A stretch of 24,192 nucleotides of DNA, taken from IMG/VR virus record IMGVR_UViG_3300042539_000672, positions 1-24,192 of that record; one strand, 5' to 3'. Both the position numbers and the translations under genes were made by a program. Shown piece by piece: positions 2,832-7,825 of the stretch. A model generated the notes under the pieces. The model did not search any database and was not told the origin of the DNA. It saw only the letters and a program-made list of their open reading frames with translations. The DNA comes from a virus. Within the stretch, counting starts at the first letter, position 1; every line of letters starts with the position of its first letter.

Positions 2832-2865
2832 TGCCGCCCTGCCTCAAATGAAAGACATCGTTTCC

Positions 2866-3174
2866 ATGCGTGGTGACGCCGAGATTGCGAGACTGAGACT
2901 CCAGGCGGCGCACGCGGAGGTGGAGCGGCTGCGGCTCACCGACGCGGAGCGAGAGGCACCAATGGCTGACGCCGCCGACTGGCTGCGGCACGCTGTCGCC
3001 AGCGGCGCGATCCAGGTCGCGCAACTGGAGTCAGAGATCGAGCGCCTGCGGCTCACCGACGCGGAGCGGGATGTGTTGGCAACCGTCAGGGACATCTACG
3101 CATCGCATGACGAGGACGATTCTTGCAGCAGGATCGCGGCGGTGATTGACGGCCTGCTGGAGCGGACGAAGTGA
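2866..3174 (+). CDS. Small coiled-coil protein with an internal repeat
   Basis: This is a 102-aa, highly charged, helix-rich protein. The segment ERLRLTDAER occurs twice, at about residues 20-29 and 59-68. The matching DNA copies (2923-2951 and 3040-3068) are 28/29 identical and 117 bases apart, so the gene contains an internal duplication of one helical unit. Between them lies another helical stretch (ADAADWLRHAVASGAIQVAQLESEI), and the end, IAAVIDGLLERTK, also looks helical. The frame is open from a GTG at 2797, but that start lies in the hairpin. ATG 2848 or ATG 2866 is more likely, and neither has a strong Shine-Dalgarno sequence, so the start is uncertain. LTDAER-containing coiled-coil proteins ending in LRALLER-like tails are, as I recall, common in planctomycete genomes and phages. 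Function unknown. Confidence 0.6.
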   Translation: MRGDAEIARLRLQAAHAEVERLRLTDAEREAPMADAADWLRHAVASGAIQVAQLESEIERLRLTDAERDVLATVRDIYASHDEDDSCSRIAAVIDGLLERTK

Positions 3175-3259
3175 GAACTCCAGCGATCAGCGGCCCGCGA
3201 CCGCTGACTTACCATTCCGGCAGACGGCATCGCGGGTCCGCTGCATCGCGTGGTTAGGC
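3172..3259. other. Integron attC-like recombination site
   Basis: A long imperfect inverted repeat is bounded by an AAC (3176-3178) and the perfect integron core heptamer GTTAGGC (3253-3259). The outer stem pairs 3183-3200 with 3230-3249, giving 18 base pairs with only two unpaired bases, C3244 and T3237, both on the right arm. An inner stem pairs 3201-3206 with 3221-3227 and has a third unpaired base, A3224, again on the right arm. Unpaired (extrahelical) bases confined to one arm are the structural mark by which integron integrases recognise the folded single strand of attC. In known attC sites the extra bases sit in the arm next to the RYYYAAC core. Read on the reverse strand, GCCTAAC is that core and the extra bases follow it, so the site probably points in the minus direction. 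The opposite core (GTTCTCA in that reading) is degenerate. The upstream stop codon TGA lies inside the site. Confidence 0.6.
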
Positions 3260-3267
3260 AAAAACAC

Positions 3268-3273
3268 AGGAGG
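3268..3273 (+). promoter_or_regulatory. Perfect Shine-Dalgarno AGGAGG
   Basis: AGGAGG lies 7 bases before ATG 3281 and fixes that start. It is the strongest and best spaced ribosome binding site in the accessory stretch, where neighbours have weak or overlapping starts. This suggests the gene carries its own translation signal, as autonomous cassette genes do. Confidence 0.7.
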
Positions 3274-3280
3274 ATGATTT

Positions 3281-3691
3281 ATGCGAGAAGAATGCACACC
3301 GGCATTACTGGTCGGCAGGACTATTGATCGGATCGAAACTAACAAGGAGGGCGACGAGATGCTTTTCGTCTGCACGGACGGAGAGGCATTCCGGGCCTAC
3401 CACATGCAGGATTGCTGCGAGCACGTCCGAATCCACGACACCAAGGGGATGCTGTGCGACTTGATCGGCCAGACGATCATTGAGGCGAGCGAGGACGCCG
3501 AGAGCGATAACTGGCCTGATGATGTCGAGAAGCCGAAGTACCTCGATTCGTTTACCTGGACGACGCACCGCTTCAAGGCCGCGAACGGTGCCGACGTTGC
3601 TGTGCGGTGGCTGGGCGAGAGCAACGGGTACTACGGCGAGAGCGTTCACTTCCAGCGGACGCATCTGCCGGTCGATGGATTTGACGCCTAA
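3281..3691 (+). CDS. DUF7448-type small protein
   Basis: This 136-aa protein matches my recollection of the DUF7448 pattern, found in phages and bacteria. A strand pair around the family block AYHMQDCCEHVRIHD (about residues 39-53) is followed by GMLCDLIGQTIIEASED (about 55-71), an acidic linker, then a TWTTHRF strand and the end block VAVRWLGESNGYYGESVHF (about 105-123). The paired cysteines in QDCCE and the motif SNGYY are the most telling. No function has been established that I know of. The gene begins 21 bases after the GTTAGGC core of the attC-like site. Its stop TAA lies inside a GCCTAAC heptamer (3686-3692), so it is set out like an integron gene cassette. An internal ATG at 3359 also has an upstream AGGAGG-like sequence, but the family match begins before it. 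Confidence 0.75.
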   Translation: MREECTPALLVGRTIDRIETNKEGDEMLFVCTDGEAFRAYHMQDCCEHVRIHDTKGMLCDLIGQTIIEASEDAESDNWPDDVEKPKYLDSFTWTTHRFKAANGADVAVRWLGESNGYYGESVHFQRTHLPVDGFDA

Positions 3692-3744
3692 CCAGTATTC
3701 GACCGCATCTTCGCCGCCTAACACGGCGCGGAAATGCGTTTCAC
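3686..3744 (+). other. Second attC-like element with two GCCTAAC heptamers
   Basis: GCCTAAC occurs at 3686-3692, overlapping the stop codon of the upstream gene, and again at 3716-3722. A hairpin pairs CGCAT (3704-3708) with ATGCG (3734-3738) and continues inward to CGCC/GGCG, with one mismatch and one extra base (C3714) on the left arm. It is followed by GTTTCAC (3738-3744). If GCCTAAC and GTTTCAC are the outer cores, the element is 59 bases, near the lower size limit of attC sites, and points in the plus direction. The right core is poor and the arm spacing is uneven, so this is weaker than the site at 3172-3259. It may be a decayed or truncated attC. Confidence 0.35.
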
Positions 3745-3830
3745 GGCCGAACGGAGCGAAACGGCCCGAGAAAGGCGGCGAAGCGGCGAGTGGACGGAAA
3801 GTGACGGGAACCAGTGCCGGAGCAAACGCC

Positions 3831-4091: not shown

Positions 4092-4138
4092 CCGCGGTCT
4101 GAAAATGGTGGTGTCCGCTTCCGCCGGAGACCGCCACC

Positions 4139-4222
4139 ATGCACGTCGATCAAGTGTGGGAAGACTTCTACGCGGAACTGGACTCGCTCTCGGACGAGTT
4201 GTCCGGCATCGAGTTCCTGTGA
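4139..4222 (+). CDS. Possible 27-aa acidic small ORF
   Basis: A 27-codon ORF encodes an acidic helix with VWEDFYAELDSLSDELSGIEF as its core. GGAGA lies at 4125-4129, about 9 bases before the ATG. The start codon sits in one arm of an inverted repeat (ATGGTGG 4105-4111 with CCACCAT 4134-4140) that could hide or expose it. It fills the gap between the membrane protein gene and the head genes. Sequences of this length often occur by chance in high-GC DNA, but the composition is unlike the other frames. I do not recognise a family. Confidence 0.35.
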   Translation: MHVDQVWEDFYAELDSLSDELSGIEFL

Positions 4223-4506: not shown

Positions 4507-5966
4507 TGGGCCTGTTCGGCAACCTCCTCGGGCAGTCCCGGCGGTCGCTGGAGGCGACAATCGCCAAGCAGCGGCACGCCGTCACCAACCTCATCCGGGC
4601 ACGGTACGACGCCGCCCAGACCACGCCCGGCAACAAGAACCACTGGTCGCAGGCCGACCACATGGCGGCCGACGCCGCCCTGTCGCCGTGGGTGCGACGG
4701 ACGCTCCGCTCCCGTGCCCGCTACGAGGCCGCGAACAACGGCTACCTCGCTGGCATGGTGGCGACCCTGGCCACCGACCTGGTCGGCAAGGGGCCGACGC
4801 TGCTCCTCGACTGCGGGCCGGACGCCGATCAGTCGGCCGTCGCCCGCGTGGAGGAGAACGTCTTCGAGTGGCACCAGGAGATCGACCTGGCGAAGAAGCT
4901 CCGGACGCTCCGCAGCGTGAAGGCGATCGACGGCGACGGCTTCGGCATCCAGACCACCAACCGCCGGCTGCGGAACGTGCAACTCGATCTCCGGCTGGTC
5001 GAGGCCGACATGATCGCCGACCCGGCAAGCCGGTTTGAGTTCGGCGGTGCCGTCGACGGCGTGCGGTTCGATGCCGACGGCAACCCGTCCGAATACTTCC
5101 TCCTCGACCACCACCCGGGCTCGCTGCACTTCGGCGTGACGCTGGGCGGCAAGTGGGTAGATGCTCGCTACGTCCACCACTACTTTCACGCAACCCGCCC
5201 CGGGCAGCACCGCGGCGTCGGCGAGGTCGTGCCGGCCCTCGAGCTGTTCGCGATGCTCCGCCGCTACCAGTACGCGGTCGTGACCGCTGCGGAGACGGCC
5301 GCCGACTTCGCCGCGATCTTCAAGACCACGATGCCGGCGAGCGGCACCGCTGCCGCCCTGCCGCTGGCCGAGACGCTGCCGATCATGCGTGGCATGGCAA
5401 TGGCGGCTCCCGAGGGGTGGGACGTTGCCCAGATGCGGGCCGAGCACCCGACCAGCACGTTCGACGCCTTTGAGCGGCGGATTCTGATGCAGATCAGCCG
5501 CGCCCTGTCGATGCCGTACATCGTCGCGGTGATGGACGCGACCGGGGCGAACTACTCCACCATGCGTGGCGACTACCTCGTGTATCGCCAGCACATGAAC
5601 GCCGAACGGGCGGACGTGGAGCGGGTGATCCTCGACCCGCTGCTCCAGCGGTGGATCGACGAGGCCGCCGTGGTGGACGGCATGATCCCCGACGGCCTCC
5701 CGCCCCGCGATCAGTGGACGTGGCGGTGGCGCTGGGACGGCCATGAGCACATCGACCCGCTCAAGGAAGCCAACGCCGAGAGCGTCGGCCTGGAAAACAA
5801 GACCGTGAGCCGGTCGGAAGCCTGTGCCCGCCGCGGCAAGGACTGGCGGCAGGTGTTCCGCCAGATCGCCGCCGAGGAGGCGTATGCGGCTGAACTGGGC
5901 ATCGACCTCACGACGCCCGATCAGCAGCCGGCCCCGGCCGACCAGCCCCAGGAGGCGAACCAGTGA
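4506..5966 (+). CDS. Phage portal protein (lambda gpB-like)
   Basis: The portal is the dodecameric ring at one capsid vertex through which DNA enters and leaves. The 486-aa product matches the lambda portal family (Phage_portal_2). It has an N-terminal region with RSRARYEAANNGYLAGMVATLATDLVGKGP (about residues 73-102), a feature that begins most members, then the wing and stem regions. Further on come FERRILMQISRALSMPY, then YSTMRGDYLVYRQHM and a C-terminal crown with KDWRQVFRQIAAEEAYA. A proline-rich tail ends the protein. The start ATG 4506 overlaps the stop of the small head gene. An upstream in-frame ATG at 4461 lies inside that gene and is not used in my view. The stop is shared with the GTG of the protease-capsid gene (GTGA). 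Confidence 0.92.
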   Translation: MGLFGNLLGQSRRSLEATIAKQRHAVTNLIRARYDAAQTTPGNKNHWSQADHMAADAALSPWVRRTLRSRARYEAANNGYLAGMVATLATDLVGKGPTLLLDCGPDADQSAVARVEENVFEWHQEIDLAKKLRTLRSVKAIDGDGFGIQTTNRRLRNVQLDLRLVEADMIADPASRFEFGGAVDGVRFDADGNPSEYFLLDHHPGSLHFGVTLGGKWVDARYVHHYFHATRPGQHRGVGEVVPALELFAMLRRYQYAVVTAAETAADFAAIFKTTMPASGTAAALPLAETLPIMRGMAMAAPEGWDVAQMRAEHPTSTFDAFERRILMQISRALSMPYIVAVMDATGANYSTMRGDYLVYRQHMNAERADVERVILDPLLQRWIDEAAVVDGMIPDGLPPRDQWTWRWRWDGHEHIDPLKEANAESVGLENKTVSRSEACARRGKDWRQVFRQIAAEEAYAAELGIDLTTPDQQPAPADQPQEANQ

Positions 5967-7825
5967 GCCAGAAAATCACGTTCGGCGGCGAAGCAACGCT
6001 CATCGAGGCCCCGATCCTCGCGGACGGCCAGAGCAGCGGCAACCCGAAGTTCTCGCTCGTGGGCTACACCGGCCGGGCCATCCGGCAGGCATGGAGCCGC
6101 ACGCCGCTCGTCGTGGACCTGGCCGGCATGGACACGACCAGCCAGCCGATCGCGGTGATGCTCGGCCACCAGTACGACATCGACCACGCCGTCGGCCAGG
6201 CGTCGGATGTCGTGAACAGCGGCACGGACCTGACCGTGGCCACCGAGGTCATCGGCGAGAGCCCAGAGGTTGCGAAGGCCGTGACGCTGGCCCGCAAGGG
6301 CTGGCGGTTCCAGGCGTCGATCGGGGCCGACGTCGGCCGGATCGAGAACATCGCCGCCGGCGAGAGCGTCGAGGTGAACGGCCGCCAGTTCGCCGGCCCG
6401 ATCAGCGTGGTGCGTGCCAGCACGCTCCGCGAGGTGTCGATCGTCCTTTTCGGAGCAGACGCCGCTACGTCTGCCGCGATCGCTGCGGAAGCGAATGATG
6501 GAGGTTTCCCCATGGCGGATCACGCCACCCAGAAGCCCGACGAGGTCAAGGCCTCGGCGGAAGCCACGGCGAAGGTCGCCGTGGAAGCGAAGGCCCCCGA
6601 GGCCGTGACGCCGCCCGCTCCCTCCGTGGACCTGGGTGCGATCAAGGCCGAGCTGCTCGAGCAGATCCGGAAGGAGGTCAAGGCCGAAGCCCTCGCGGAC
6701 ATTCGTGCCGATCGCCCGTCCGCTCCGGCGGTTCACGTCGTCGCCAAGCCGGCCGAGACCGACGAGCTGCTCGTCGCCTCGATCTGCCTCGCCGGCAACC
6801 TGCCCGGCGTCGACAAGCAGTTCGGCGAGCGGACGCTCGAAGCCGCCCACAAGCGGCGGAACATGGGCCTCCAGGAGATGCTCCTGCGGGCCGCGAAGGC
6901 GAACGGCTACCAGGGTGATGCCTACAAGCTCACCGACGGCAACCTTCGCGACGTGCTGAAGGCATCGTTCGGGTCCAGCACCCATTCGATCGCCAACGTC
7001 GTCGGCACGGCCTACGGCAAGTTCCTCCTCAACGGCTACACCTCGGTGGAGTCGGTGTGGGACCGGATCTCGATGATCCGCCCCGTCTCCGACTTCAAGG
7101 CGGTGACCGGCGTGCGCGTCAACGGCGGGTTCACGTTCGAGGAAGTCGGCCCGGCCGGCGAGCTGAAGTCGGCCGAAGCGACCGACGAGGCCCGTTCGTT
7201 CGGTGCGAAGTCCTACGGCCGGATCTCCGCGATCAGCCGTCGGGACCTGATCAACGACGACCTCGGTGCTCTGACCGTGGTGCCCACCCGGCTCGGCCGT
7301 GGTGCGGCTCTCCGGTTCAACACCAACTTCTGGGCCGAGTTCCAGGCGTCTAACGCCACCTACTTCGAGCGGGCCACGGCCGGGGCTGGCAACGCCCTCA
7401 GCCTGACCAGCCTGAAGGCGGCCGTGTCGGCCTACCGGAAGGTCACCGACGCGGACGGCAACCCGCTGTCTGTGGCCCCGGCGATGCTGCTGCTCCCGCC
7501 GGAGCTGGAGATCGCGGGTGCCGAGCTCATGGGCTCGGCCCTGATCCACGGCACGAGCGGTGCGGCCCCCAGCACGAACGTGCTGGCCGGTCGTTATCAG
7601 GTCGTGTCGTCGGTCTACCTGTCGAGCGCGAGCACCTGGTGGCTCGTGGCGAACCCGGGCGACCTGAACGCGATGGAGGTGCTGTTCCTCAACGGCAACC
7701 GCAACCCCGTCGTGGAGCAGGCCGAGGCGGACTTCGACACGCTCGGCATCCAGGTCCGCGGGTACTTCGACTTCGGTGTCGCCAAGGGCGAGCCGAAGAG
7801 CTGCTACCGGATGGCCACGGCCTGA
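5963..7825 (+). CDS. Prohead protease / major capsid protein fusion
   Basis: This 620-aa protein combines two head-assembly activities. Residues about 1-175 are an HK97-type (S78) prohead serine protease, with the catalytic histidine in VMLGHQYDIDHAVGQ (His69) and the serine in KGWRFQASIGADVG (Ser119). It closes with the family's usual end, REVSIVLFGADAATS. Residues about 184-260 are charged and helical with Ala, Glu and Pro, like a scaffolding delta region (KAELLEQIRKEVKAEALADI). Residues about 260-620 are an HK97-fold capsid protein, with motifs such as MIRPVSDFKAVTGV, SYGRISAISRRDLINDD and the end block LDTLGIQVRGYFDFGVAK. This layout matches the known prohead protease/major capsid fusion family. 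The start GTG 5963 is preceded by AGGAGG. An in-frame ATG at 6512 with its own GGAGG could give a separate 437-aa scaffold-capsid product. Confidence 0.93.
   Translation: MSQKITFGGEATLIEAPILADGQSSGNPKFSLVGYTGRAIRQAWSRTPLVVDLAGMDTTSQPIAVMLGHQYDIDHAVGQASDVVNSGTDLTVATEVIGESPEVAKAVTLARKGWRFQASIGADVGRIENIAAGESVEVNGRQFAGPISVVRASTLREVSIVLFGADAATSAAIAAEANDGGFPMADHATQKPDEVKASAEATAKVAVEAKAPEAVTPPAPSVDLGAIKAELLEQIRKEVKAEALADIRADRPSAPAVHVVAKPAETDELLVASICLAGNLPGVDKQFGERTLEAAHKRRNMGLQEMLLRAAKANGYQGDAYKLTDGNLRDVLKASFGSSTHSIANVVGTAYGKFLLNGYTSVESVWDRISMIRPVSDFKAVTGVRVNGGFTFEEVGPAGELKSAEATDEARSFGAKSYGRISAISRRDLINDDLGALTVVPTRLGRGAALRFNTNFWAEFQASNATYFERATAGAGNALSLTSLKAAVSAYRKVTDADGNPLSVAPAMLLLPPELEIAGAELMGSALIHGTSGAAPSTNVLAGRYQVVSSVYLSSASTWWLVANPGDLNAMEVLFLNGNRNPVVEQAEADFDTLGIQVRGYFDFGVAKGEPKSCYRMATA
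6500..6514 (+). promoter_or_regulatory. Internal ribosome binding site and ATG in the capsid gene
   Basis: GGAGG (6500-6504) lies 7 bases before an in-frame ATG at 6512-6514, exactly at the junction between the protease domain and the helical scaffold-like region (Met184). This resembles lambda, where an internal start in the protease gene C makes the scaffold Nu3. Here it would release a scaffold plus capsid polypeptide without the protease, so capsid could be made in excess over protease. Confidence 0.6.

Follow-up and report, generated by a model that had tools for sequence, protein, structure and literature searches.

A small integron without an integrase of its own most probably lies in the gap between the terminase and portal genes of this viral genome, carried by the phage and made up of an attI-like docking site, one DUF7448 cassette and the attC of that cassette. 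We assign this reading a probability of about 0.72. The identity of the attC, the cassette boundaries, the junction rule, the sharing of the attI-like sequence by different cassettes, the reversed orientation of the genes and the failure to find an integrase are taken here as established, while active recombination, use of a host enzyme, expression within the late operon and benefit to the phage are inferred.

A planctomycete-type attC site in the terminase-portal gap

The DNA analyzed here (hereafter, the window) is an entire viral record of 24,192 bases, whose relevant features are compiled in Table 1; capsid genes are also present. Most sequences related to its terminase in genome collections bear the label of planctomycete metagenome-assembled genomes (MAGs); the identity of the host was inferred at the class or phylum level only.

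Table 1. Features of the window that are relevant to the cassette locus
Feature	Position	Strand	Basis
Terminase large subunit, flanking phage gene	251..2416	+	PF20454, phrog_38
orfB, last array gene on the terminase side	2848..3174	+	TGA in R' core
attC recombination site, planctomycete type (supported)	3171..3260	-	Covariance model, strict geometry without mismatch, DNA folding
Gene cassette	3178..3691	-	Sequence, end of homology, junction rule
Cassette gene, 136 aa, DUF7448 / phrog_2650	3281..3691	+	Family match
attI-like platform (putative), ending in ..GTTAGGCGGCGAAGATGCGGTCGAATACTG directly before GTT	3693..3752	-	Backbone common to relatives
Portal protein, flanking phage gene	4461..5966	+	PF05136, phrog_21

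The initial annotation had described an attC-like element of 88 bases in minus orientation, with bulges on one arm and one degenerate core, and had recommended that it be folded. When the plus strand was folded as single-stranded DNA, a stable hairpin of -28.2 to -28.6 kcal/mol was obtained (z of about -5), and none of 200 shuffled sequences was equally stable. The extent of the element was correctly given, and so was its orientation. With regard to the bulges, the 5' arm of the hairpin is uninterrupted over 21 pairs and only the 3' arm of the outer stem contains single unpaired bases, in agreement with that description. These are, on the plus strand, the extrahelical bases C3244 and T3237 and, additionally, G3250, which is located in the region that is normally the unpaired central spacer. 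The extrahelical pair on the bottom strand is C/T; in attC sites this pair is usually G/T, a deviation that speaks against the reading proposed here.

The top strand of the attC corresponds to the minus strand, and the recombinogenic bottom strand would be the plus strand. The R'' core TGCCTAAC occupies positions 3260-3253, and the R' core GTTCTCAC positions 3178-3171. Taking the aadA1 attC as the reference, the spacing on the minus strand is exactly the canonical one, i.e., AAC, 8 nt, an extrahelical base, 6 bp, a second extrahelical base and the stem, and the distance of 9 nt between the inner stem and GTT also follows the canonical layout. Structurally, the element shows what is expected of an integron attC, namely an imperfect palindrome, AAC...GTT cores, one-sided extrahelical bases and fixed spacing. 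The claim of a degenerate core could not be upheld, since neither core is degenerate: in Planctomycetia attC sites only AAC/GTT is invariant, with each junction combining two cassettes, and GTGAGAAC (3171-3178) is a normal core that looks degenerate because its outer bases belong to the neighbouring cassette, that is, to the start of the next unit. Counts of GTTRRRY were discarded as evidence, given that they are at chance level in the window and the core alone carries no weight; since many chance stems were returned when palindromes were scanned loosely, strict geometry was used instead.

A covariance model (R1) was trained solely on 38 integrase-adjacent attC sites from Planctomycetia chromosomes. 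In line with the expectation that an attC model would match, and with the suggested comparison with planctomycete sites, this model recognized positions 3171-3260 on the minus strand with 56.4 bits (E 8.3e-16), and no second match was found anywhere in the 24 kb window. It also matched 43 places in 18 phage loci with E values of 2.4e-4 or better, and gave no convincing match in other planctomycete prophage loci amounting to 730 kb, where the best E value was 0.07. In 38 phage loci the host-attC model yielded 212 matches; 14 of 19 pairs covary and G-T wobbles are rare, a pattern that fits the expectation for a DNA hairpin. The strict-geometry scan of 2.65 Mb of fetched loci yielded 81 matches versus four in a Markov control, and 74 of these sites carried extrahelical G and A; some of the loci overlap, so not all 81 sites are independent. 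A second set of viral loci (1.94 Mb), taken from the matches listed by two pattern scans of the viral collection, contained 394 strict sites, compared to none in the control, although this set was selected by an attC-arm pattern and its counts do not reflect prevalence. The scanner does not detect attC sites in general and misses, for instance, the array in contig L115.

That the hairpin functions at the RNA level, or as a regulatory palindrome such as a terminator or processing site, and resembles attC only secondarily might be suggested by its high stability and its position between co-directional late genes. We consider this highly improbable, as the hairpin has no Rfam match, and a DNA recombination site is indicated by the covariation with few G-U pairs, by fixed bulges on one arm only and by the AAC/GTT core rule. 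Nor does the element belong to an unrelated repeat family, the outcome which had been named as a refutation, because elsewhere it occurs in cassette arrays in which the integron junction rule holds. The analysis thus supports the hairpin as a genuine planctomycete-type integron attC; this rests on sequence data, and recombination at the site is inferred only.

Cassette boundaries and the attI-like platform

The cassette extends from G^TTAGGC on the minus strand to the final G of the attC at 3178, with the cut expected between 3692 and 3691. Its ends, GTTAGGC at 3253-3259 and GCCTAAC at 3686-3692, are reverse complementary, which is the rule for the end cores of a cassette once circular. Accordingly, the cassette criterion is satisfied in the window, since the start core is the reverse complement of the R'' core of its own attC. 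Support for this boundary came from DNA similarity to the DUF7448 cassettes of unrelated phages, which ends at 3692-3696. The DUF7448 cassette of L041 carries different cores, which are again matched (GTTATGCC and GGCATAAC).

The DUF7448 gene is antisense to the top strand of the attC. A strong Shine-Dalgarno sequence (AGGAGG) is located right after the core, and the TAA stop codon lies inside the next core, GCCTAAC. No DUF7448 gene was found in 397 Planctomycetia genomes, in a search performed without a positive control. No attC belonging to orfB was detected. Within this gene the motif LRLTDAERE occurs repeatedly, and it is seen again in several small, otherwise dissimilar genes at the same hotspot in relatives (L041, 3750-4780). 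Separately, a strong inverted repeat (GGTGGT..ACCGCCACC) at 4103-4142, just before a small ORF, is kept in L039 and L041.

On the portal side, the cassette end adjoins the attI-like sequence. The attI type of the window (..GTCGAATACTK before GTT) recurs in six other contigs. In L039, L041, L346, L354, L403 and L462, different first cassettes follow this backbone. A second type (..GGTCAATTACATG before GTT) is almost identical over 75 nt in seven phages, which diverge exactly at GTT. The same first cassette was found behind two different attI types in L208 and L039. Among 93 candidate viral attI sequences, GTTAT was present in 39% (background, 1.1%), and 56% ended in the pattern AAnnAC (background, approximately 1%); some candidates are attC ends and not attI, which makes these fractions conservative. 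A similar end (..CTAATnACA before GTT) is seen at several chromosomal attI sites. The exact motif of the phage attI was absent from the 397 host genomes, so that no specific host integron was matched. A conserved sequence followed by varied first cassettes is what we term an attI-like platform, a function that we infer from these comparisons alone.

Viral arrays obey the junction rule and carry reversed genes

With only one attC, the window itself does not meet the criterion for a CALIN (at least two nearby attC sites without intI), while its relatives contain 2-14. The host-trained model matched 38 of the 40 viral contigs tested, with up to 14 sites per contig. Carriers of arrays include contigs with tape measure, helicase, primase, exonuclease and tail genes, as well as contigs of 146-205 kb. 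The many phage contigs with arrays thus bear out the proposal of the initial annotation that cassettes are picked up or carried by phages. We do not regard arrays as a general feature of this terminase family, as prophage loci at 53-58% terminase identity gave no attC matches.

Consecutive viral cores, compared at four variable bases per pair, matched in 165 of 224 distinct neighbouring pairs, versus a mean of 30 and a maximum of 44 in 500 shuffles. Cassette genes usually, but not obligatorily, run with the top strand of the attC. The gene in the window does not, and in the viral pool 120 cassette genes were antisense and five sense to their attC, with 88 viral cassettes undecided. This contrasted with the chromosomal cassettes, with 28 genes in sense, four antisense and 17 undecided, a comparison which rests on 52 cassettes. 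An independent test based on Shine-Dalgarno positions gave antisense-to-sense ratios of 87:7 in viruses and 4:24 in chromosomes. In the window, the reversal aligns the cassette gene with the terminase and portal genes. Since the direction of flanking genes is mixed across the other phages, co-directionality of all arrays with their neighbours is not claimed.

Of 100 viral cassette proteins, most had no Pfam match; 11 matched DUF551, and others were DNA methyltransferases, Mom, HNH and DUF7448 proteins.

The possibility that these sites are passenger relics, i.e., an attC cluster that was taken from a host integron on a single occasion and is no longer active, with the differences between phages arising by homologous recombination, has to be considered given the single attC of the window, the absence of one from orfB and the fact that integrase-less attC clusters are already known in phages (PMC9892861); near-identical attC sequences could, moreover, serve as patches of homology. 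We find this explanation quite unlikely, however, because junctions fall exactly at GTT with cores rematched, the genes face the other way from those of host integrons, attI-like sites have stayed conserved across distinct phages, and DUF7448 was not found in the 397 host genomes, albeit without a positive control.

Several further observations were made on individual contigs. Apparently the same attC array is present in G443 (146 kb; 945-1614) and G444 (205 kb; 149325-149994). G450 (62 kb) and G452 (58 kb) have attC arrays at both contig ends, which suggests that they may be circular genomes opened inside the array and, hence, possibly complete. L115 (= G007; 20 kb, AT-rich) contains, at 4800-6320 and near another DUF7448 gene, a second, different attC-like array with cores such as ACATAAC..GTTAGTT and similar ones, which is VCR-like and does not follow the planctomycete layout; whether it is of phage or bacterial origin is undetermined.

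Which recombinase might act on the phage sites

No match to the integron integrase family TIGR02249 was found in the window, and none above the cut-off in 71 viral contigs of up to 205 kb; as most of these contigs are fragmentary, an integrase may be encoded in the parts that are missing. Likewise, no integrase adjoining the array was detected in the relatives of the window. The criterion for a complete integron, intI together with the array, is thus not met. By contrast with the viral contigs, 119 of the 397 Planctomycetia genomes had TIGR02249 matches above the cut-off, and the arrays beside these integrase genes show the same layout and the same extrahelical pair as the viral sites.

Of 35 contigs carrying an array, 22 also encode another tyrosine recombinase (PF00589, approximately 290-430 aa), in general at a considerable distance from the array. 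A phage-encoded enzyme of this kind, distinct from IntI and recognizing the same folded sites, could in principle move the cassettes: in L114 one such gene lies about 200 bp from an attC, and G001, a near-identical relative of the window, has a PF00589 protein with weak similarity to IntI. Nevertheless, these genes are usually several to tens of kb away from the array, as expected for prophage integrases, and in their signatures attC and attI match host IntI systems. Furthermore, no PF00589 protein was detected in the remaining 13 contigs, including those of 146-205 kb (G443 and G444 among them), in which no integron integrase was found either, and we regard a phage recombinase as unlikely. 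Because no examined contig encodes an integron integrase, a host enzyme acting in trans on the phage sites is the most likely alternative, although its use remains an inference.

Relation to known systems and proposed model

The phage arrays resemble the chromosomal integrons of Planctomycetia (IntI/TIGR02249) in attC geometry, with extrahelical G/A on the top strand, in the terminal loop of approximately 37 nt, in the AAC/GTT cores and in the end of the putative attI. They differ in that the chromosomal integrons have intI beside attI and genes in sense, while in the phage arrays intI was not found and the genes are reversed. As a separate observation, in the chromosomal integrons L245-L294 the array lies beyond the 3' end of intI, and its attC sites have the same sense as intI, unlike in class 1 integrons.

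Integrons have been seen as bacterial devices for stockpiling genes, with the few phage cases read as borrowed fragments. Qi et al. (2023) described 17 CALINs and four integron/In0 elements in 10,705 phage genomes, and five of six tested phage attC sites recombined with IntI1 (PMC9892861). Those CALINs share with the present arrays the condition of integrase-less attC cassette clusters in phages; neither planctomycetes nor reversed cassettes are mentioned in the text searched. The known phage CALINs TJE1 and P12002L gave no convincing match to the strict planctomycete geometry, bearing in mind the above limits of the scanner. A covariance model for attC sites of Planctomycetes has also been published (Ghaly et al. 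2021; PMC8352920), which means that the attC type found here was already known; that model was built from chromosomal integrons, and phages are not mentioned in its text. In the literature searched, which excludes most subscription journals and preprints, we found neither reversed cassette pools nor orphan attI sites reported from phages. Thus, phage attC clusters as such are known (PMC9892861), while the reversed cassettes, the orphan attI and the abundance look new.

In the model that we propose for an integrase-less phage integron, the terminase-portal gap would serve as the cassette landing site of this phage family. Cassettes would enter at attI and be exchanged or lost at G^TT, through an integron integrase that is supplied in trans by the host and presumably acts on the folded bottom strand of the attC, here the plus strand of the phage. 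Being reversed, and hence co-directional with terminase and portal, the cassette of the window could be expressed together with both genes. On balance, and with some reserve, we also consider it probable that many kinds of planctomycete phage keep an integron variant of their own, consisting of a dedicated attI that lacks an integrase, together with a pool of reverse-oriented cassettes particular to phages (methyltransferases, Mom, HNH and numerous small proteins of unknown identity), and that this pool is shuffled in the course of infection with an integrase borrowed from the host.

Phage lineages seem to have appropriated the integron, with a landing site in their genome and cassettes that face in the direction opposite to those of host integrons, and the phages that carry arrays seem to depend on an enzyme made by many of their likely hosts. 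If true, this would explain fast and precise swapping of accessory genes in such phages.
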